Shown one piece after another: positions 9,501 through 61,655 of a stretch of DNA of 64,000 nt. This DNA comes from Rhodanobacter sp. FW104-R8 (GTDB lineage: Bacteria > Pseudomonadota > Gammaproteobacteria > Xanthomonadales > Rhodanobacteraceae). The stretch lies in the NCBI RefSeq assembly GCF_001617365.1, contig NZ_LVJR01000029.1, positions 1 to 64,000 of the forward strand. The letters run 5' to 3'. A program made the translations under genes and the position numbers. The notes under the pieces were generated by a model, which was not told the DNA's origin, did not search any database, and was given only the letters and a program-made list of their open reading frames with translations. Positions within the stretch are counted from its first letter, which is position 1; each line of letters opens with the position of its first letter.

Positions 9501-9995
9501 CTGGCCTTCTACATCGACTGGGCCTGCCTGAAACTCGCCCGTGCCGATGACGGCAGCCGCCTGCAGGCCACGCTGCTGGAGCAGGTCTGGCGGACGCGGG
9601 GCGGCGGCAGCGTGCTGGTTGCCCAGAGAGCCGGCATGCTCGACGCCGTCATGGCGCAGGATGATGACCGGCTGCGCCATGGCCTGCGCCGCCTGATCGA
9701 GGCATGCCGGGCCGCCGAACAGCGACCGCTGCTGTTCTTTCCGCGTACCGCACAGGCCTGGGCCGCCAGCGAACCGGAGGACCGCCGCGCCAAGGCAATT
9801 GCGGCGTGGGAAGGCGACGGCTTCAACCCCGGCGAGCGCGACTACGCACCCGGCTACGCGGCCCTGCTGAGCCGCGGACTGGATCTTTTCGACGAAACCG
9901 GCCCCGCGCACCGTGCCTTCATCGCCGCCACCGAACTGGTCTGCGGCGTGCTCGATCCGGGGCACACGACGCTGTTGAAGGAACCCCGCCCATGA
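6546..9995 (+). CDS. recC: RecBCD exonuclease V subunit gamma (RecC)
   Basis: RecC is the Chi-recognising, non-catalytic helicase-like subunit of RecBCD, which resects double-strand ends for recombination repair. The start chosen is ATG at 6546 (MRDNPGGLIVHRGSRTERL), preceded by AGGAAGG; an upstream in-frame ATG at 6510 lacks a ribosome-binding site. The product is 1149 residues, normal for RecC. Recognisable stretches are VVVAHPGLQRWLLGHLAQ near the N-terminus, HACHTRLRELEVLKNALL in the helicase-like region and VVCLLGMNEGEFPR. It is the first gene of recC-recB-recD. A palindromic repeat separates it from recB. Confidence 0.95.
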   Translation: MRDNPGGLIVHRGSRTERLADALALQLEAQRPANPLAAQTVVVAHPGLQRWLLGHLAQRSGPHGGHGIAANIEMILPWQWFERAARRVLGDEALIGGAYRHELLRWRLLAALPSLKAPEVAAYLAGDDAARRGFQLAEHLAGLYTQYLIYRPDWILDWEQHPAQHGGDWQAALWQRLRAAIPQPHRAQRSAALLQALRAGGGLAGDPPLHVFGVSHLPPDVLAALQATALHTPVHLYFPDPCREHWVYLRKQRFLLAHADDPEALYYEVGHPLLVALGRIAQDFCLSLDECDAIDERDPLDEAEPLGRASSLLDRLQSSIRCLQPELVGAPIREQRAGGASLEDILPALSHDASLRVHACHTRLRELEVLKNALLRFLADDPALQHRDIVVMAPDIGAYAPYLAAVFGEPAQYRSDPLHIPWHLADVGLAQAHPLMNAFSQVLDLAESRFTVSEVLDFLDVPAVARRFAIDAGGRDALERWLRRARVAWGLDAAMKAAAGAAAVDANSWQFGLDRMYAGLIVGQDADGELLDGILPLQGIAGGTVEALGQLDRLLGELRQVRHAFAGARPLAAWSAWLLERLDALFLADPRDAAEQNALDALRRLTAGLAGQAAEADVHTPLPWSVVREALRGALDAMPERQAFLLGGVTFCGLVPQRSIPFRVVCLLGMNEGEFPRPGHDAGLNRILGQPRRGDRDTRNEDRYLFLEALMSARDALHVSYVGEGVHDGKPRNPAAPLAELLQFLDEQHGLAADAKAERPWHVRHPLQPFDARYYERDAQGQPRHDPRLFSYEPTFLAAAPAGAGLPPFLDPPRAAPETVAGGEISLGALKRFWRDPVRDALQRGQGISLQALDDNGWPDREPLETPLEKIERVDHRLLFEALAAGRDELPVEPPAWLARSGMLAGGAIGEQTWIRLRDSLRPLLAQAQPLFAGGSAQPQAQAIDLDLGDGLRLTGVVDRVFHGAGDSLLWFDARPGRAAHLKDLLAFYIDWACLKLARADDGSRLQATLLEQVWRTRGGGSVLVAQRAGMLDAVMAQDDDRLRHGLRRLIEACRAAEQRPLLFFPRTAQAWAASEPEDRRAKAIAAWEGDGFNPGERDYAPGYAALLSRGLDLFDETGPAHRAFIAATELVCGVLDPGHTTLLKEPRP

Positions 9996-10003
9996 ACCTC
10001 CTG

Positions 10004-10079
10004 GCAGGAGCGCACCCTGTGCACGAACGCTCTTCGCACGGGTCCACCCAAAGGCATCGCGCACAGGGTGCGCTCCTGC
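10004..10079. repeat. palindromic repeat, GTAGGAGC group (recC-recB gap)
   Basis: Perfect 19-bp inverted arms GCAGGAGCGCACCCTGTGC (10004-10022) and GCACAGGGTGCGCTCCTGC (10061-10079) surround a 38-base centre. The arms match those at 58074-58149, so it is a dispersed element of REP type. It fills nearly all of the recC-recB gap and would form a large mRNA hairpin just before the recB start. Confidence 0.9.
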
Positions 10080-10095
10080 AACGGTATCTCGCCCC

Positions 10096-13000
10096 ATGAT
10101 CGATGCCACCGCCCTGCCCCCGCTCGACTGGCGCCGGATGCCGCTGCACGGGCGCGTGCTGATCGAGGCCAGCGCCGGCACCGGCAAGACCTGGAACATC
10201 GGCGTGATCTACCTGCGCCTGCTGCTCGAGCGCGGGCTGCCGGTGGAGCAGATCCTGGTGACCACCTTCACCGACGCCGCCGCGCAGGAACTGCGCGAGC
10301 GACTGCGCCGCCGCCTGGTCGAGGCCGAGCGCCTGCTCGAAGCCGCGACCCGCGACGCGGCCAGCGCCGATCCCCTGGAAAGCTGGCTGGCCACGCTGTG
10401 CCCCGACGCGGACAGCACGCGCATCGCGCTACGCCGGATCCAGCTCGCCCGCAGCGACCTCGACCGTGCGCCGGTCTCCACCATCCACGCGCTGTGCCAG
10501 CGCATCCAGCGCAACTACCCGCTGGAGAGCGGCGCCGCCTTCGCCGACGACCAGCTGTTCGACGAGCAGCAACTGATGCGCGAATGCGTGGAGGATTTCT
10601 GGCGCCGTCGCTACCTCGCCGGCGAGGTCGACCCGCGCGAAGCCGAGCTGCTGCTGAGGGACGGCCCGGAGGGCCTGCTGCGCGACCTCGGCGGGCTGGC
10701 GAACCATGCCGACGCGCGGATCGAGGCCGGCGGCCTGGCCGAACTCGAACGCGCGCTCGCCGTACTGCGCACGGACGTGAGCATCGCCGAGCTGCAGCGG
10801 CTGGCAGACGACGCGACGCTGTACAAGCGGGCCAATGCGGCACTGCGCGGCCGGCTCGGCGAGATCGCCCAGGCGCTGCGAGACGACGACGAGGCGCAAC
10901 TGTCCAGGTCGCTCAGCGACGTGTTCGAGCCGGAAAACCTGCCAGCGCAGACGGCCGCCGCCCGCGCCGGTGAAATCGCCGACCATCCGCTGATCCACGC
11001 CCTGCAGGCGCTGCGCCCGCTGCTCGGCATGCGCGACATCCTCGTCCGCGGCGCGGTGTTGGCCGCGGCGGCACAGGCCTGCCGCGAGGAGATGCCGCGG
11101 CGCGCGCGCCAGCGCCACGTGATGACGTTCTCGATGCTGATCGACGCGGTGTATCAGCGGCTTTGCGGCGAACAGGCCGACGACGTGCTGGCCGACCGCC
11201 TGTTCGACGCCTTCCCGGTCGCCCTGATCGACGAGTTCCAGGACACCGACCAGCGCCAGTTCGCCATCTTCGAGCGGATCTACCGCGAGCGCGGCACGCT
11301 GGTGATGATCGGCGACCCCAAGCAGGCGATCTACAGTTTCCGCGGCGGCGACATCGCCGCCTACCTGCGCGCCAGCGAACAGGCCGGCCAGCGTTTCTCG
11401 CTGGGCACCAACCACCGTTCCAGCCGTGCCCTGGTGGAAGCGTTGAACGCCTGGTACGGCCATACCGAGGGCGGCTTCGGCCAGCCGCAGATCCGCTACC
11501 AGCCGGTCGCGCCGGCCGGCAAGGCGGACGACCAGCCGTACACCGTCGACGGCCGGCCGGTGACGCAGCCGCTGGTGTTCCACCCGTTCCGCGGCGATGC
11601 CGTGGACAACAGGAATCGCCCGCTGAAGGCCCTCGGCGAACTCGAATCGCTGGCGCTGGACGACTGCGCCAACCGCATCGCCGAACTGCTCAACGACCCG
11701 CGGCGGGCGATCGGCGGCCGCCCGCTGACACCCGGCGACGTCGCCGTGCTGCTGTCCACCAACAACCAGATCGTGGCGCTGCGCCAGCGGCTGGTCGCAC
11801 GCGGCGTGCCCTGCATGGGCAGCGGCCGCGGCAACATCTTTGCCGGCGAGGTCGCGCGCGAACTGGAGCTGGTCCTGTTCGCCGTGCTGCATCCCGACGA
11901 CGACCAGACCGTGCGCGGCGCGCTGGCCACCACCCTGCTCGGCGCCACGCTGGAACAGTTCCGCGACTGGCAGGCACAGCCCGCCGCATTCGAACACGAA
12001 CTGGAACGCTTCGAGGCGTGGCGCGCGCTGGTGCGCGGCCGCGGCGTGCTGGCCCTGATCGGCGAACTGCTGGCCGCGCGCGCCACCGCCCTGCTGGCGT
12101 TGCCGGAAGGCGAGCGCGTGCTCACCGACCTGCGCCACCTCGGCGAACTGCTCGCCGCGGAGGAAGGTGCGCGGCAAGGACTGGACGGCCTGTACGCCTG
12201 GCTGCAGGAGATGCGTCGGGAAGGCAGCGACGGCGATGCCGAAGCCGCCGACGAGCGCCAGCTGCGCATCGAGAGCGACGCCCGCCGCGTGCAGCTGCTG
12301 ACCATCCACGCCAGCAAGGGGCTGGAATTCCCCATCGTGTTCCTGCCGCTGCCGTGGCGCATCGGCAACCGAACGGGCATCTATGCGCCGAAGCTGCTGC
12401 GCTATCACGACGACGCCGGCCGACGTTGCGTGGACCTGGGCTCGATGCATTTCACCGAGCACCGCGCCCGACACTTCCGCGAGGAGCTGGAGGAACGCCT
12501 ACGCCTGCTCTACGTGGCGCTGACCCGCGCCGTGCATGCCGTGCACGTGTACTGGGTCGACCGCGGCCCGCTGCCCGACGGCGATGCGCAGGCATGGCAA
12601 TGGGCGGCGATCGACCTGCTGGTCGGACAGGCCCAGCATGCGCTGGCGCTGCCCGCGGGCGAAGCCTCGCTCGCGGCCATGGCCGGGGCGCTCGGCGGCA
12701 TGCAACTGTGCGCGCCGTTCGCCGACACGTTCACCCGCTACCGGCCACCGGCCGAAACCGCCGCGCCGCGCGCCACCCAGGCGCCGCTGCCGCCGTTGCG
12801 GCCGTTCCAGTGGCTGCACAGCTTCAGCGGCCTGACCCGCCATGCCGCCGCGGCGCTGATCGACGACAGCGGCGGCGCCGACGAAGCCGGCGCGGAGGAG
12901 CCGGCGATCGAAGCGGATGATGCCGCCGAAGATGGCCGCCTGCTCGCGCTCTACCCGCTGCGCGGCCCGCGCTTCGGCGACGCCGTGCACCGCGTGTTCG

Positions 13001-13680
13001 AGCTGGCGCAGTCCGGCCCGGTCTGGCCCGACCAGCGCCAGTTGTTGCACCGCCAGCTCGGCGCGCAGGCCGTCGCCGCCCCGCACCTCGCCCATGAGGA
13101 GGCGCTGGAGCGCGTCGGCCGGATGATCGACCGTGCGCGCCAGGCCGACCTGGGCGACGGCCTGCGCCTGCTCGACCTCGCACCCGACCAGCGCATTACC
13201 GAGTTCGAGTTCCAGTTTCCGGTACGGCAGGTGCCGCTGGCGCAATTGCGCCGGATCTGCGCGGACCACGGCCACGCCGACGCGGTGCCGGCCAGCCTCG
13301 ACGCCACCACGCTGAACGGCATGCTGACCGGCTTCGCCGACCTGATCCTCGCCTGGGACGGACGCTTCCACGTGCTCGACTACAAGACCAACTGGCTCGG
13401 CGCGCGGCTGCGCGACTACCAGGGCGACTCGCTCGAGGCCGCCATGGCCGAGCACCACTACCCGCTGCAGGCGCTGCTCTACACCGTGGCGCTGCATCGC
13501 TACCTGCGCCAGCGCATGGACGGCTATACGGCCGAACGCCAGCTCGGCGAAAGCTGGTACCTCTTCGTGCGCGCGCTGGGGCTGGCGCCCGGGCTGGGCG
13601 TGTGGCGCCGGCGCTGGCCGGCGCCCCTGATCGAGGCGCTCGACGACGCCTTCGCCGGTGCGCAGGAGGCCGTGGCATGA
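10096..13680 (+). CDS. recB: RecBCD exonuclease V subunit beta (RecB)
   Basis: RecB is the 3'-5' helicase and nuclease subunit of RecBCD. The product is 1194 residues. Walker A is ASAGTGKTWNI (about 26-36), the start of a UvrD-like helicase; LIDEFQDTDQRQFAIFERIY is the Walker B region, followed by GDPKQAIYSFRGGDI, and TIHASKGLEFPIVFLP and LLYVALTRAVHAV are later helicase motifs. The C-terminal nuclease shows GDAVHRVFE, then HVLDYKTNWLG with the catalytic Asp and Lys, then YPLQALLYTVALHRYL. It ends ATGA, overlapping the recD start by four bases. Confidence 0.96.
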   Translation: MIDATALPPLDWRRMPLHGRVLIEASAGTGKTWNIGVIYLRLLLERGLPVEQILVTTFTDAAAQELRERLRRRLVEAERLLEAATRDAASADPLESWLATLCPDADSTRIALRRIQLARSDLDRAPVSTIHALCQRIQRNYPLESGAAFADDQLFDEQQLMRECVEDFWRRRYLAGEVDPREAELLLRDGPEGLLRDLGGLANHADARIEAGGLAELERALAVLRTDVSIAELQRLADDATLYKRANAALRGRLGEIAQALRDDDEAQLSRSLSDVFEPENLPAQTAAARAGEIADHPLIHALQALRPLLGMRDILVRGAVLAAAAQACREEMPRRARQRHVMTFSMLIDAVYQRLCGEQADDVLADRLFDAFPVALIDEFQDTDQRQFAIFERIYRERGTLVMIGDPKQAIYSFRGGDIAAYLRASEQAGQRFSLGTNHRSSRALVEALNAWYGHTEGGFGQPQIRYQPVAPAGKADDQPYTVDGRPVTQPLVFHPFRGDAVDNRNRPLKALGELESLALDDCANRIAELLNDPRRAIGGRPLTPGDVAVLLSTNNQIVALRQRLVARGVPCMGSGRGNIFAGEVARELELVLFAVLHPDDDQTVRGALATTLLGATLEQFRDWQAQPAAFEHELERFEAWRALVRGRGVLALIGELLAARATALLALPEGERVLTDLRHLGELLAAEEGARQGLDGLYAWLQEMRREGSDGDAEAADERQLRIESDARRVQLLTIHASKGLEFPIVFLPLPWRIGNRTGIYAPKLLRYHDDAGRRCVDLGSMHFTEHRARHFREELEERLRLLYVALTRAVHAVHVYWVDRGPLPDGDAQAWQWAAIDLLVGQAQHALALPAGEASLAAMAGALGGMQLCAPFADTFTRYRPPAETAAPRATQAPLPPLRPFQWLHSFSGLTRHAAAALIDDSGGADEAGAEEPAIEADDAAEDGRLLALYPLRGPRFGDAVHRVFELAQSGPVWPDQRQLLHRQLGAQAVAAPHLAHEEALERVGRMIDRARQADLGDGLRLLDLAPDQRITEFEFQFPVRQVPLAQLRRICADHGHADAVPASLDATTLNGMLTGFADLILAWDGRFHVLDYKTNWLGARLRDYQGDSLEAAMAEHHYPLQALLYTVALHRYLRQRMDGYTAERQLGESWYLFVRALGLAPGLGVWRRRWPAPLIEALDDAFAGAQEAVA

Positions 13681-15707
13681 ACCTCCCGCTGCCGCAAGCC
13701 GCCAATGCCGACGCCGACGAGCGCGCGATCGACCAGGGCCTGGCGCAATGGGTGCTCGGGCGCACCGGCTCCGCTCCGCTGGCTGCCGCCGTGCGCGCAG
13801 CCAGCCGTGCCGAAGGCCACGGCCATTCCTGCGCCACGCTGACCGACCCGGATACCGACGCCGGCTTCGACGCCGACGCCCTGGGCGAGTTGCGCCGGCA
13901 CGACTGGGTCGGCGACGGCAGCTCGTTCACCCCGTTCGTGCTCGATACGCAGGGGCGTTTCTACCTGTGGCGCAACTGGCAGCATGAAACCAAGCTCGCC
14001 GAGGCGATCCTGCGGCGCTGCGCGCAACGCACGCTGCCGATCGCCGCCGATACCCTGGCCAGCGACCTGGACACGCTGTTCGCCGGCATGCCGCGCGGCG
14101 CCACCGACTGGCAGCGCGCCGCCGTGGCCGCCGTGCCCGGCGCGCGCTTCTTCGTGCTCACCGGTGGCCCCGGCACCGGTAAGACCACCACCGTGGTGCG
14201 CATGCTGCTGATGCTGCTGCAGCACGCGCAGGCCTGCGGCCTGCCGGCGCGGCCGTCGATCGCCCTCGCCGCGCCCACCGGCAAGGCCGCCCAGCGCCTG
14301 GTGCAGGCCATCGCCAGGGGCAAGGCCGAGCTGCAGGCCGCCTTGGCCGACGACCGCCCCGTAGGGCGGGCACTGCCCGCCGCTCTTCACCACCCCAACG
14401 AAGACCAACCGCCGGCGGACAATGTCCGCCCTACAGCGCTGGGCGACGACCCCGTAGGGCGGGCACCGCCCGCCGCTCTTCACCACCCCAACGAAGATCA
14501 AGCGCCGGCGGGCACTGCCCGCCCTACGGAGCTGCTTCGGCCCAACCTGCCGAATCTGCTGCAGCACATCCCGCACGCCGATGCGCGCACGCTGCACCGC
14601 CTGCTCGGCTACCGGCCGATGGACGACAGCTTCGACCGCGGCCCGCACAACCCGCTGGCCGAGGACATCGTGGTGGTGGACGAGGCGTCGATGGTGGACC
14701 TGGCAATGATGCGCCAGCTGCTGCAGGCGCTGCGCCCCGAGGCGGTACTGATCCTGCTCGGCGACCCGGGCCAGCTGGCCTCGGTCGATGCCGGCTCGGT
14801 GCTGGCCGACATCGTCGCCGGCGCACCGCGCAACCGGCTGCCGCCAGCGCTGGCCGGCCTGCTCGCGCCGCTGCTGCAGCAAGCGCCCGGCAGCGCCGGC
14901 GGCGACACACCGCTGGCCGGCCAGGTACTCACGCTGACCCACAGCTGGCGCGCCGGCAGCGGCCTGCAGCGCGGCGTCGAGGCGTTGCGCGACGCGCCCG
15001 ACCCGGCCTGGCTGGACGCGCTGCTGGGCAAGCGCAGTGACGGCGACCTGCACCTGCGCCACTGCCCCAACCCGCATGCCCTGCGTGCCTGCGTCGACGG
15101 CTGGATCGATCGGCATGCCGCACTGTTGCAGGCATTGCTGACCTCGCCCATCGACGCCGGCACCGCGCTGCAGAACCTGCATCAGCTGCAGATCCTCTGC
15201 GCACTACGCGACGGCCCGTTTGGCGCGCAAGGCCTCAACGAATTGATCGCGCGCCGACTCGCCACCCGTTTTGGTATCGACAGCGGCCACGCCTGGTACC
15301 ACGGCCGTCCGGTGATCATCACCCGCAACGACTACGCCCGCGGCCTGTTCAACGGCGACGTCGGCATCGCGCTGCAAGGCGCAGAGGGACTGCACGTGTG
15401 GTTCGAGCTCAGCGACCGCGACGGCAACGCCGGCCTGCGCAGCTTCTCACCACGCGCCCTGCCCGCGCACGAAAGCGCCTGGGCGATCACCATCCATCGC
15501 AGCCAGGGTTCGGAATATCGCGACGTGGCCGTGATACTCCCACCGGACGAAGACAACCATGTACTCACCCGCGAACTGGTCTACACCGCCATCTCGCGCG
15601 CCAGAAGCCACGCCGAGATCTGGGCTACCGATGGCTCGCTGCGCGCGGCACTGAGTCGCCCGATCCGGCGTCAGGGTGGCCTGCGGAAGCGGCTGCAGTC
15701 GTCCTGA
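13677..15707 (+). CDS. recD: RecBCD exonuclease V subunit alpha (RecD)
   Basis: RecD is the 5'-3' helicase subunit. The start is the ATG at 13677, overlapping the recB stop as ATGA. The product is 676 residues. Motifs are GGPGTGKTTTVVRMLL (Walker A, about 163-178), APTGKAAQRLVQAI (motif Ia), TLHRLLGYRP, VVVDEASMVDLAMM (Walker B), GDPGQLASVDAGSVL, TIHRSQGSEYRDVAVI and LVYTAISRARSHAEIW. Between APTGKAAQ and TLHRLLG, residues about 229-284 come from two in-frame copies of a dispersed palindromic repeat. That segment is Pro/Ala/Asp-rich and probably a flexible loop on the helicase surface. All catalytic motifs remain intact, so the protein is probably functional. Confidence 0.95.
   Translation: MNLPLPQAANADADERAIDQGLAQWVLGRTGSAPLAAAVRAASRAEGHGHSCATLTDPDTDAGFDADALGELRRHDWVGDGSSFTPFVLDTQGRFYLWRNWQHETKLAEAILRRCAQRTLPIAADTLASDLDTLFAGMPRGATDWQRAAVAAVPGARFFVLTGGPGTGKTTTVVRMLLMLLQHAQACGLPARPSIALAAPTGKAAQRLVQAIARGKAELQAALADDRPVGRALPAALHHPNEDQPPADNVRPTALGDDPVGRAPPAALHHPNEDQAPAGTARPTELLRPNLPNLLQHIPHADARTLHRLLGYRPMDDSFDRGPHNPLAEDIVVVDEASMVDLAMMRQLLQALRPEAVLILLGDPGQLASVDAGSVLADIVAGAPRNRLPPALAGLLAPLLQQAPGSAGGDTPLAGQVLTLTHSWRAGSGLQRGVEALRDAPDPAWLDALLGKRSDGDLHLRHCPNPHALRACVDGWIDRHAALLQALLTSPIDAGTALQNLHQLQILCALRDGPFGAQGLNELIARRLATRFGIDSGHAWYHGRPVIITRNDYARGLFNGDVGIALQGAEGLHVWFELSDRDGNAGLRSFSPRALPAHESAWAITIHRSQGSEYRDVAVILPPDEDNHVLTRELVYTAISRARSHAEIWATDGSLRAALSRPIRRQGGLRKRLQSS
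14361..14527. repeat. two palindromic repeats in frame inside recD
   Basis: Two 74-bp copies, 14361-14434 and 14454-14527, each start GTAGGGCGGGCAC and end GCCCTAC or close to it. A 19-bp spacer separates them, giving a 93-bp period (31 codons). They share the centre CTCTTCACCACCCCAACGAA. The same ends occur in the intergenic elements at 33351-33415 and 39341-39410. The reading frame passes through both copies without a stop, giving the near-identical peptides VGRALPAALHHPNEDQ and VGRAPPAALHHPNEDQ. Confidence 0.93.
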
Positions 15708-26467: not shown

Positions 26468-26545
26468 TGTAGGAGCCCGCTTGCGGGCGATGCCTTTTCC
26501 TTGGGGCTCCAAAGCAAGAGCATCGCCCGCAAGCGGGCTCCTACA
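26468..26545. repeat. palindromic repeat, GTAGGAGC group (lspA-ispH gap)
   Basis: Perfect 25-bp inverted arms lie at 26468-26492 and 26521-26545, with outer ends TGTAGGAGCCCGCTTGCGGG and its complement, around a 28-base centre. The outer TGTAGGAGC matches the element at 58074-58149, but the inner stem differs. It occupies most of the 112-bp lspA-ispH gap. Confidence 0.92.
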
Positions 26546-27097: not shown

Positions 27098-27205
27098 CTC
27101 CCCCTGCAATGCAGGGGGAGGTTGGGAGGGGGTTCGCTTTTGACCTTGGGAGATCAGATCAAGAGCCTACCCCTCCCCGGCCCTCTCCTGCTTTGCAGGG
27201 GAGGG
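27098..27205. repeat. compound inverted repeat (ileS-lspA gap)
   Basis: Two hairpins, CTCCCCCTGC (27098-27107)/GCAGGGGGAG (27111-27120) and CCCTCTCCTGC (27181-27191)/GCAGGGGAGGG (27195-27205), face each other. Their tails (GGGAGGGGGTTCGCTTTTGA and the complement-like GATCAAGAGCCTACCCCTCC) are also inverted. It looks like two copies of the CCCTCCCCTGC repeat head to head. Confidence 0.85.
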
Positions 27206-27218
27206 AGTTACGTCAAGG

Positions 27219-30080
27219 TCAGAACCAGCGGCGATCCTCGCCCGGCCCTTCGACGTTGCCGACGCAGCGCCCGCACAGCTCGGGGTGCCCGGCGTGGCTG
27301 CCCACGTCGTCGCGCCGATGCCAGCAGCGCACGCACTTGTCTGCGCCACTGACCGTGGCCGAGACCCAAGCGTCGGCGCCCTCCAGCTCAGTCAGCACCG
27401 CGTCGGCCGGCTGGCCACCAGCCAGGTCGAGACGCACCTCGGAGGTGATGAAGAAGAACCGCAGTTCACTGGCCGCAGGGGCGTAGCGCGCCACCGTGGC
27501 CTCGTCGGCATGGATCGCCAGCTTCGCCTCCAGTGCGGCGCCGATCAGCTCGGCCTTGCGCATGCCCTCGAGCACGCGCGAGGCGGCGTCGCGGATCGCC
27601 AGCAGGTCGGTCCACCAGCGCCGCTGTTCCGGAGAGGCCTGGGTGGCGGCGAGGCCGTCGTACCAGGTCTCGAACAGCACGCTGTCGCCGCGCTTGCCCG
27701 GCAAAGCCTGCCAGATCTCCTCGGCGGTGAAGCTAAGGATCGGCGCCAGCCAGCGCACCAGTGCCTCGGCGATGCGGTACATCGCGCTCTGCGCGCTGCG
27801 CCGGCCGCGGCTGTCGGTCGGCATGGTGTAGAGCCGGTCCTTGGTGATGTCCAGGTACAACGCGCCCAGTTCGTTGGTGCAGAAGTTCTGGATGCGCGAC
27901 ACCACCTCGGGATAGTCGTAGCGCTCGTACGCGGCCGTCACCGCCTGCTGCACGTCATGCGCCTGCTGCACCGCCCACTGGTCGAGCAGCACGCTGCCAT
28001 CCACCGGCAGCAGGTGCCGCGCCGGGTCGAAGCCGTCCAGGTTGCCGAGCAGGAAACGCGCGGTGTTGCGGATGCGGCGGTACGCATCGGAGACGCGCTT
28101 GAGGATCTCGTCGGAAACGGTCATCTCATTGCGGTAGTCGGCCGAGGCCACCCACAGGCGCAGCACGTCGGCGCCCAGCGTGTCCATCACCTTCTGCGGC
28201 GCCACCACGTTGCCCAGCGACTTGGACATCTTGCGGCCGTTCGCATCCACGGCGAAGCCGTGGGTAAGCACCTCGTCGTACGGCGCGCGGCCGAAGATCG
28301 CCGACGAGGTCAGCAGTGACGACTGGAACCAGCCGCGATGCTGGTCAGAGCCTTCCAGGTACATCACCCTGTAGTGCGACGCCGTGCCCTGCTGCAGTTC
28401 CGGGCGCTGGCCGATCACCGCGAAATGGGTGACGCCGGAGTCGAACCACACGTCCAGCACGTCGGTGACTTTCTCGTAGTCGCTGGCCTGGTCGCCGAGC
28501 AGCTCGGCCGCGTCCAGCGTGAACCACGCGTCGATGCCGCCCCGCTCCACCTTCTGCGCGACCTGCTCCAGCAGCGCGACGGAATCCGGGTGCGGCTCCT
28601 GCGTGGCCTTGTGCACGAACAGCGCGATCGGCACGCCCCAGGTGCGCTGGCGCGAGATGCACCAGTCCGGACGCCCGGCCACCATGCCGGCGATGCGCTC
28701 CTCGCCCCAGCCCGGCACCCAGCGCACGCTCCTGATCGAGGTGAGCGCGGTCTCGCGCAGGTCCGCCTGCTCCATCGAGACGAACCACTGCGGCGTGGTG
28801 CGGTAGATCACCGGGGTCTTGTGCCGCCAGCAGTTCGGGTAGCTGTGCTCGATCTTCGCGAACGCCAGCAGCACGCCGCGGCGGCGCAACAGTTCGACGA
28901 TGGCGTCGTTGGCCTTCCAGATGTGCATGCCGGCCAGTTCGAGGCCGTCGGCGGCCGGCGTGTCGGCGCGGTAGTTGCCGTGTGACCCGATGTAGTTGAG
29001 CAGGCCGATGCCGTACTCGCGCGCCACCACGAAATCCTCGACACCGTGGTCGGGCGAGGTGTGCACCGCGCCGGTGCCGTCCTCGGCGCTGACGTGCTCG
29101 CCGAGGATCACCGGCACGATGCGCTCGTAGAACGGGTGATGCAGCTGCAGGCCTTCCAGCGCCCTGCCTTCGGCATGCCCCAGCACGGTCGCCTGGCCGA
29201 TGCCGTAACGCTGCGCCACCTTGTCGACCAGCGCGCTGGCGACCACCAGCAGCGTGCGCTGCCCTTCGCGCGCCGGCCCTTCGACCAGCGCGTATTCGAG
29301 ACCGCCGCCGAGCGACACCGCCTGGCTTTCCGGCAAGGTCCACGGCGTGGTGGTCCAGATCGGGATGGCGACGATCGCATCGCCGGCATCCACGCCGAAC
29401 CGGGCCGCCAGCGCCTTCGGGTCGACCGCGTCGTACGCCACGTCGACGGCGGGCGAGACCTTGTCGCCGTACTCGATCTCCGCCTCGGCCAGTGCCGAGG
29501 CGCAGTCGAAGCACCAGTACACCGGCTTGGCGCCGCGCACCACGTGGCCGTTGGAAACGATGCGCGCCAGCGCGCGCAGCATGTCGGCCTCGTACCTGAA
29601 ATCCATCGTGCGGTACGGATGCTCCCAGTCGCCGAGCACGCCGAGCCGCCTGAAGCCGGCGCGCTGGTCGTCGATCTGCTGCTGGGCGTACTCGCGGCAC
29701 TTCTGGCGGAACTGGGCGGCGTCGAGCTTGTCGCCCGGCTTGCCGTACTTCTTCTCCACCGCGATCTCGATCGGCAGGCCGTGGCAGTCCCAGCCCGGCA
29801 CGTAGGGCGCGCGCTGGCCGGCCAGCAGCTTGGACTTGACCACCATGTCCTTGAGGATCTTGTTGACCGCGTGGCCGATGTGGATCGAGCCGTTCGCGTA
29901 CGGCGGGCCGTCGTGCAGCACGAACACGCTGTCGCGATGCGCCGTCTTCTGCTGGATCTGCGCATAGCGGCCGACCCGCTCCCACTCGGCCAGCCAGCCC
30001 GGCTCGCGCTTCGGTAAATCGCCGCGCATCGGGAAATCCGTCTGCGGCAGGTTGATCGTGCTCTTGTAGTCGTGGGTCAT
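27219..30080 (-). CDS. ileS: isoleucyl-tRNA synthetase
   Basis: Charges tRNA-Ile with isoleucine; class I synthetase of 953 residues. The start is ATG at 30080 ([20 protein letters not shown]), where the family similarity begins; the open frame extends 20 residues further without support. The HIGH motif lies in [13 protein letters not shown], and KMSKS in [10 protein letters not shown]. The editing domain is present in between ([14 protein letters not shown]). The C-terminal zinc finger [12 protein letters not shown]...CGRCVGN is intact. It lies between ribF and lspA in the usual order. Confidence 0.97.
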
Positions 30081-33350: not shown

Positions 33351-33415
33351 GTAGGGCGGGCACGGCCCGCCGCTTTAAGTTCATCTGGCAAGAACCGGCG
33401 GGCCGTGCCCGCCCT
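33351..33415. repeat. palindromic repeat, GTAGGGCGGGC group
   Basis: GTAGGGCGGGCACGGCCCGC at the left end pairs with GCGGGCCGTGCCCGCCCTT at the right end around a short centre. It is the same type as the elements at 14361-14527 and 39341-39410. It lies between the rpsT terminator and the end of the feo operon. Confidence 0.9.
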
Positions 33416-33432
33416 TGTGGTACCGTCGCACG

Positions 33433-39340: not shown

Positions 39341-39344
<4 letters not shown>

Positions 39345-39410
39345 GGCGGGCACGGCCCGCCGTACCCGGCGTGACGCATCGTTGAGAGCCGGCGGGCAAT
39401 GCCCGCCCTT
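39341..39410. repeat. palindromic repeat, GTAGGGCGGGC group, supplying a stop codon
   Basis: It starts GTAGGGCGGGCACGGCCCGC and ends GGCGGGCAATGCCCGCCCTT. It is the same type as at 33351-33415 and inside recD. Its second to fourth bases (39342-39344) are the stop codon of the carboxylase gene. Confidence 0.92.
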
Positions 39411-39456
39411 GCCGTCCCGGCGAGCGGCAACTTCACCTCCCTACCGGAGCTTTCGC

Positions 39457-44962: not shown

Positions 44963-45025
44963 GTGCGTTCATCCATGGGCGCGAAAGTCAAAAAGCGGCC
45001 ATCCATGGCCGCACTCTTCAAATAG
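44963..45025 (+). repeat. 63-bp GTGCGTTCATCC repeat, copy 1
   Basis: It begins GTGCGTTCATCCATGGGCGC directly after the SDR stop and includes the hairpin GCGGCC-ATCCAT-GGCCGC. It differs from the copy at 60516-60578 at about nine of 63 positions. No other copy was seen in the window. Confidence 0.85.
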
Positions 45026-45046
45026 ATCACTACTTCCCGGGCACTC

Positions 45047-49499: not shown

Positions 49500-49511
49500 A
49501 CCCGCATCGCT

Positions 49512-49575
49512 CCCTCCCCTGCTTCGCAGGGGAGGGCTGGGGAGGGGTTGCTCTTGATCTTCGCGCACGCTCTCC
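49512..49575. repeat. hairpin repeat, CCCTCCCCTGC group
   Basis: Perfect 11-bp stem CCCTCCCCTGC (49512-49522) / GCAGGGGAGGG (49526-49536) with loop TTC, followed by the tail GGGGAGGGGTTGCTCTTGAT shared with 15732-15816. It lies between the exported protein gene and kynU. Confidence 0.85.
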
Positions 49576-58073: not shown

Positions 58074-58149
58074 GTAGGAGCGCACCCTGTGCGCGATGGC
58101 TTGATGGTTGGCTCCGGGCGAAGCGGTCGCGCACAGGGTGCGCTCCTAC
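58074..58149. repeat. palindromic repeat, GTAGGAGC group, supplying the argC stop
   Basis: Perfect 23-bp arms at 58074-58096 (starting GTAGGAGCGCACCCTGTGCG) and 58127-58149. It matches the recC-recB element. On the minus strand its TAG (58148-58146) is the argC stop codon. It fills the argC-argH gap. Confidence 0.93.
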
Positions 58150-60515: not shown

Positions 60516-60578
60516 GTGCGTTCATCCGTGAACGCGAGAGTCAAAAAGCGGCCGTCCCTGGCCGCACTTTTCAACAAG
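60516..60578 (+). repeat. 63-bp GTGCGTTCATCC repeat, copy 2, coding for the ArgE C-terminus
   Basis: It matches 44963-45025 at about 54 of 63 positions. Read on the minus strand it encodes the last 18 residues of ArgE (from LVEKCGQG to RVHG) and its stop codon, and it contains the possible upstream ATG of argB. Confidence 0.88.
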
Positions 60579-61655
60579 ACGAAAAGCAACTTCTGCGTAG
60601 TGTTGGAGCTGGTCGAGCGCGACCCATTCGTCGGCGCTGTGCGCCTGGGCGATGTCGCCGGGGCCGTACACGAAGGCGGTGTAGCCGGCGGCGGAGAACA
60701 GCGCCGCCTCGGTCCAGAAATCCACCGCGTTGCCCACGGGGATTCCCAGCTCGTCGGCGAGATCGCGCGCGGCCAGCCGGCGCGCCTCGGCGGTGGCGGT
60801 GTCGCCCGCCGGCAGCGAGGGGCCGCGGAAAGTCTCAGCGAACTCGGCCGGCATGGGCTCGACCAGGGTGCGGAAACGTTCCAGCAGGCCGTCGGGATGC
60901 ATCGTCGGCAAAGGCCGCATGCCGAAGCGCACCTCCGCACTGGGTGCGATCATGTTCGCCTTGATGCCACCCTCGATGCGGCCGATGTTGAAACGCAGGC
61001 CGGTGAGTCCGCCGAAACGCTCGTGCGCCTGCGCCGCCACGAAATCCAGCGCCGCATCGCCCCAACGCACCGCCTGGTGCAGCGCGCTGTCGCCAGGCTT
61101 CTGCTCGCCCGAGGCGTGGCCGGCGTGGCCGGCGAAGCGCATCAGCACCGACTGGATGCCGCGATGCGCCAGCACCGCCTCGCCCTTGGTGGGCTCGGCC
61201 ACGATCACCGCATCGTAAGCCGGCTTGTCCGCGAGGAAGCCGGCGATGCAGCGCGGATCGTTGGCCTCTTCGTCCGTGGTGAACAGCAGCGCCATGTCGC
61301 CGCTGCCGGCGTTCGCCACCGCCAGCAATGCCGCCGCCGCACCCTTGATGTCGCAGGCACCGAGGCCGATGGCGCGGTCCGTCGTCACGCGCAGCTCGTG
61401 CGGGCTGGCCGTCCACGCCGGCGAGTCGGGCACCGTGTCCAGGTGCACGTTGAACAGCAGCTTCGGCTGGCCGCGCATCGCATGCAGACCCACGGCGCCG
61501 GCGCCGTGGTCGGTAACCGCGACGTCGAAGCCGGGCAAGTGCGCGCGGATATAGTCGAAGATGCCCCCCGTGGTGATCGCGCGCGGAGGGTTGCGGGTAT
61601 CGAACGACACCAGCGCCTTGAGGTGTTCCAGTGTGGATTGCAGTAAGTCGCTCAT
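60522..61655 (-). CDS. argE: M20 deacetylase (acetylornithine or acetylcitrulline deacetylase)
   Basis: An M20 zinc peptidase-family deacetylase of 377 residues. Metal ligands are in [11 protein letters not shown] (His, Asp), [14 protein letters not shown] (Asp) and [10 protein letters not shown] (Glu pair). The dimerisation domain shows [20 protein letters not shown]. In Xanthomonas the corresponding gene at this place acts on N-acetylcitrulline, working after acetylornithine carbamoyltransferase; which substrate applies here cannot be read from the sequence. The final 18 residues and the stop are supplied by a dispersed repeat. Confidence 0.9.

Follow-up and report, generated by a model that had tools for sequence, protein, structure and literature searches.

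How a RecD subunit comes to be encoded in part by repeated DNA is the question raised by the recD gene of Rhodanobacter sp. FW104-R8, which we analysed within a 64,000-nucleotide stretch of contig NZ_LVJR01000029.1 (the window). The gene (13677 to 15707, + strand) encodes a 676-amino-acid exodeoxyribonuclease V alpha subunit and lies downstream of recC and recB. In a profile search the product scored 433.8 bits against the equivalog model TIGR01447 (cut-off, 310), and it has the fold and the conserved motifs of RecD; the catalytic motifs are retained, as an earlier note on this DNA had stated. The recC gene, which ends at 9995, matches TIGR01450 above the cut-off, and recB, which starts at 10096, has its best match to TIGR00609 at 677.3 bits, just below the cut-off of 696.

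The earlier note had described two near-identical 74-bp elements with a 93-bp period, placed between motif Ia and TLHRLL of RecD and crossed by the reading frame without a stop, and this description was borne out. The elements are class A REP dimers at 14361 to 14434 (inverted arms at 14361 to 14381 and 14414 to 14434) and at 14454 to 14527 (inverted arms at 14454 to 14474 and 14507 to 14527). They are 92% identical, and the 676-codon frame passes through both. GTAGGGCGGGC opens each copy and GCCCGCCCTAC or a near variant closes it; the right arm of copy 1 differs. A class A dimer consists of a GTAG head and an imperfect palindrome in which GTAGGGCGGGC-NNN-GCCCGCC arms face each other, and its RNA fold has a z score of -7.8.

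The match between the two copies is 91 bp long, extending beyond the repeat into the host flanks by about 10 bp on the left and 7 bp on the right (units 14351 to 14441 and 14444 to 14534, 89% identical, together spanning 14351 to 14534). Because host flank is included, the most plausible origin of copy 2 is tandem duplication of an insert that was already tolerated in frame, which agrees with what had been proposed from the period; an independent second insertion is less likely. In the recD of a relative, G243, a near copy of the pre-loop host codons GAG CTG CAG GC stands before the second (class B) dimer (locus L150), hinting at a duplication step.

Both dimers and the intervening bases encode 58 residues (228 to 285) of an expanded loop that, by loop-length comparison, comprises residues 221 to 297, from KAELQ to IPHADARTLHRLL (14337 to 14567, + strand). 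From the proline of motif Ia to HRLL there are 111 amino acids, compared with 45 to 51 in 12 insert-free relatives of the genus. Extra residues are thus present as had been claimed, but the figure of about 55 was low, the loop being 63 residues longer (111 versus 48) than in insert-free relatives. In the AlphaFold model the insert has pLDDT below 50 at residues 233 to 263 and 265 to 284, which predicts disorder; the blocks that contain motif I (GGPGTGK) and motif Ia have mean pLDDT values of at least 90. A RecD with some 58 repeat-coded residues, predicted to be disordered, would be expected to remain a working helicase.

With up to 2 mismatches allowed, a search of the genome for the repeat unit found 117 matches to the class A arm and 5 to a backwards control; a few near-perfect palindromes are scored on both strands. 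This abundance upholds the suggested origin from mobile-type DNA. The repeat has the structure, the high copy number and the location mainly outside genes of the GTAG-superfamily REP/BIME elements. Among the matches are the two positions for which similar ends had been noted, each now recognized as a class A dimer outside a coding frame by our survey test (33351 to 33417 and 39341 to 39411). For the arm of a second family, class B, the genome holds 125 matches at up to 3 mismatches and the control none; one class B dimer (10004 to 10079) separates recC from recB and another lies at 58074 to 58149. A dimer of a further family, class D, is found at 26469 to 26544. The window also contains a 64-nt repeat, 86% identical between its copies at 44963 to 45026 and 60516 to 60579, which possibly represents another dispersed repeat family.

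Few of these elements lie in genes. In a survey whose genic-cluster rates are estimates for both genomes examined, given the sensitivity of its coding score, the arms left out and the elements within 30 codons of the end of an open frame, which it misses, 2 of 107 clusters in the source genome are genic and in frame, one in recD and the other in the gene for an Lhr-type helicase. The clusters come from the window and from 100 stretches fetched around repeats, drawn from 100 of the 117 class A and 100 of the 125 class B arms listed, with 15 of these 200 (ten spots) left out. In G243, recD is the sole clear in-frame genic case among 96 clusters (68 stretches); Lhr is also hit, out of frame. Tried on 28 loci with a known insert, the coding score finds 19 at the cut-off used (0.15) and 27 at a cut-off of 0, where the source genome still yields recD and Lhr only and G243 gains one doubtful case (L333) beside a RAYT gene; lower cut-offs bring weak cases. 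At L333 the open frame of the RAYT gene continues through the adjoining REP dimer (1223 to 1296). Single weak arms inside genes at two other G243 loci (L311 and L329) were taken as chance, and one arm in the window (29802 to 29822, 3 mismatches) was scored as genic at first and dropped at a stricter limit.

Of the possible phase choices, 44 of 78 are free of stops in class A dimers, as are 63 of 123 in class B; dimer length is divisible by three in 8 of 26 class A and 5 of 41 class B dimers. By these figures, a good part of the insertions into genes could leave the frame readable, yet few insertions in genes were found. At two loci (L183 and L228) open frames stop at a REP head, the TAG of which appears, from the coordinates, to act as the stop codon.

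Among the nearest relatives that carry a name, the majority are Rhodanobacter. The 45 genomes of the genus that we searched include 43 with a RecD match, and the loop was compared in the 26 of the close RecD type, the other 17 being left out. REP DNA fills the loop in 14 of the 26, and the loop is empty (45 to 51 residues between the motif ends) in 12; the reading frame is open in all 26. The fillings belong to three unrelated REP families: class A in the source genome, G246 and G243; class B in G010, G019, G248, G005, G244 and G243, in which A and B stand in a row; and class C in G004, G014 and G110. The remaining three of the 14 (G009, G021 and G035) retain just a degenerate right arm of class A. 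Among 19 loops fetched from other genera of the family (L129 and L131 to L148), 17 were readable, L138 and L141 being unread by the loop pattern, and all 17 are empty, with 47 to 51 residues. The occurrence of three REP families in the same loop across species goes beyond the earlier note, and for REPs inside repair genes as such there is published precedent. The comparison with relatives that the note had called for also bears on whether the segment could be an ordinary RecD feature, the outcome that the note had named as refuting its reading; the loop would then be family-specific and disordered, with a chance likeness to a repeat. Loop length does vary among RecDs; nevertheless, we rejected this reading as having next to no chance of being right, because the repeat is present in high copy, the families differ between species, and close relatives, sisters among them, have empty sites.

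A tree of 31 rows built from recD without the loop requires 10 changes of insert label, and sister pairs differ, one example being G003, which is empty, and G246, which has class A. A single-clade origin was rejected for class A (p = 1.7e-24), class B (p = 1.3e-12) and class C (p = 6.9e-6), and, with G243 removed, again for class A (p = 7.7e-32) and class B (p = 1.3e-5). Holding the source genome and its three remnant-bearing relatives (G009, G021 and G035) as one clade gave p = 0.035; within class A, parsimony does not separate gain from loss. In four pairs with repeat-derived loops, and with few changes to count, pN/pS was 0.30 to 0.75 in the loop and 0.21 to 0.36 in the flanks. These data directly support the identity of the repeat, its reading in frame, the empty sites of relatives and the several origins.

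Insertions of several families lie within a few codons of one another in recD. Every class A or B head has the phase GTA GGN, with GCA in place of GTA by mutation in G019 and G244, and the three heads of class C share the reading xGT GGG AGC. Such closeness and uniform phase would be expected if the DNA of the recD and Lhr loops were a preferred RAYT target that concentrates insertion. We regard this attraction as improbable, since the upstream bases of copies elsewhere are biased only modestly, the recD flanks match the class A bias poorly, and a single site is common to three families.

In one clade, comprising G010, G019 and G248 (support, 100/100; loci L019, L020 and L056, respectively), the spacer of the dimer differs in orientation. 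The G248 spacer resembles the reverse complement of the G010 and G019 spacer; the comparison with G010 scored 18, and shuffled sequences reached 4 at most. Both loops keep the reading frame, which gives the core ENMLPHGDTF in G010 and EKSRRVAACF in G248. The simplest reading of these sequences would be that the G248 spacer was inverted in place; its source may instead be the insertion, in the opposite direction, of a sister element, as other class B dimers can also have similar spacers.

The second in-frame genic site of the source genome is a class B dimer (L233, G000:C14:22303-22376) in a helicase identified as Lhr type by matches to DEAD_assoc, WH3_Lhr and WH4_Lhr. This gene was read in 39 of 40 matched genomes, G016 having a fragment only, and the site carries repeats in 13 of the 39: class B in ten (one broken, one a single arm), another REP family in two (G031 and G236) and an unrelated palindrome in one (G014). 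In G243 (L307) the frame is broken where the REP sits, and extra DNA disturbs the right arm. The palindromic repeat of G014 (L371) is CCCTCTCCCC...GGGGAGAGGG; by eye it resembles the window at 27169 to 27207 and 49510 to 49548. The model of Lhr is of low quality as a whole (mean pLDDT, 59.5); in it the insert lies within a low-confidence turn between two predicted strands.

The filling of these sites by class B tracks the supply of class B repeats. Class B arms, counted in the 45 genus genomes, number 62 to 500 in the six genomes with class B in recD and 0 to 113 in the other 20 (p = 4.5e-4; p = 0.0037 with the G010 clade collapsed, which is the only handling of kinship in the copy-number tests). 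For Lhr the counts are 27 to 500 in the ten genomes with class B and 0 to 78 in the other 29 (p = 2.0e-5; G004 included). Copy number alone is not the whole story for class B in recD: the source genome (G000; 113 arms), G004 (82) and G027 (57) have many arms yet none in recD.

PF01797 (Y1 transposase) matches occur in 36 of the 45 genomes, and the source genome has none. Twenty stretches were fetched around such matches in relatives, and seven of them, one per genome, contain an NF047646 RAYT with adjoining REPs, of class B in G019, G248, G244, G243 (where they are close on just one side) and G027, and of class C in G004 and G014. In all six genomes with both a recD insert and a REP-flanked RAYT, the recD insert includes the class of the RAYT: class B in G019, G248, G244 and G243 (the last also with class A) and class C in G004 and G014. 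The seventh, G027, has a class B RAYT and an empty recD, but carries class B in Lhr. G004 has class B in Lhr beside its class C RAYT, two of its four Y1 matches having been fetched. The other 13 stretches were without a REP-flanked RAYT, among them those of G010 and G005 (class B), G110 (class C) and G246 (class A), all of which have recD inserts. Because the source genome has no Y1 match and the 20 stretches include no class A RAYT, movement of its class A elements by a RAYT is argued by analogy. The class B link to copy number, the match between REP and RAYT family, and the predicted disorder are supported directly.

We consider it probable that RAYT-mobilised REPs have been kept in a permissive recD loop and were duplicated in the source genome, the RAYT movement, the neutrality and the retained helicase activity being parts that we infer. 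The segment consists of two REP dimers of the GTAG type (BIME/REPIN). One dimer would have been moved into recD by a RAYT transposase and would have survived because it landed in frame within a loop tolerant of extra residues, and this dimer, with some host flank, would then have been tandemly duplicated at the 93-bp period. By in-frame insertion and duplication RecD would thereby have acquired a stretch of roughly 58 repeat-coded residues, predicted to be disordered. Different REP families would have entered the same loop in other lineages of Rhodanobacter.

A possible alternative is selection for a repair enzyme with altered properties. The REPs in RecD and Lhr might be kept for an effect on repair, recombination or phage-DNA degradation: both in-frame genic clusters of the source genome lie in DNA-repair helicases, each site has been hit repeatedly, recD is again the only clear genic case in G243, and the authors of PMC3733652, who report a similar bias in other species, doubt pure chance. 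Even so, we think such retention unlikely, as inserts decay (G009, G021 and G035), are wholly different in sequence and are missing from 12 of 26 relatives, class B tracks copy number as expected of passive supply, and Lhr is broken in G243. A bolder version, in which repeated landings in the RecD and Lhr loops bring REP-coded, sometimes invertible peptides that alter repair or phage-DNA processing, we hold to be distinctly unlikely. If true, amplification of a REP family would feed back on the machinery that handles DNA ends, and the inversion of the loop core that separates G248 from G010 and G019 would amount to a protein switch that operates slowly. Passive retention in a permissive loop remains our preferred reading, under which short mobile DNA repeatedly adds protein sequence at one spot.

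Whether REPs in repair genes reflect chance or have meaning has been debated without a test. Rhodanobacter recD offers a testable case of whether in-frame REPs in repair genes are harmless passengers or alter DNA repair, with a ready comparison among related species in which the RecD loop is empty, holds one of three families, is filled twice or has its core inverted, together with the Lhr site. In our literature search no paper combined any two of recD, "REP element" and Rhodanobacter. Elements of a comparable kind are known. Rickettsia palindromic elements, as described in PMC3733652 only, are likewise palindromic repeats in frame in coding genes, from a different family and host. REPINs and RAYTs (PMC3116915 and PMC2817692) share the inverted REP doublets with spacers and the RAYT genes flanked by their own REPs; those studies treat extragenic elements, and the word "Intragenic" is absent from both main texts. 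Di Nocera et al. (2013; PMC3733652) reported GTAG-headed palindromes inside repair genes, including recBCD genes; in recB, two Xanthomonas species carried unlike REPs at roughly one position. The authors judged chance hard to believe and speculated, without experiment, on altered activity. REPs in repair genes are therefore a known kind. The words "recD" and "Rhodanobacter" are absent from the main text of that paper, the gene list of which is in its supplement. From these sources, the Rhodanobacter sites in recD and Lhr, their occupation by several families and the inverted spacer look new, and, the 2013 supplement aside, no precedent for the link with copy number and RAYT class was found in the literature searched. 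Common to the elements of Di Nocera et al. and those of the source recD are GTAG-headed palindromes, mostly in dimers or groups, in repair genes; in contrast to that report, the present case comprises one recD loop with three families traced on a tree, a comparison with copy number and RAYTs, empty sites, a duplication and an inverted spacer.
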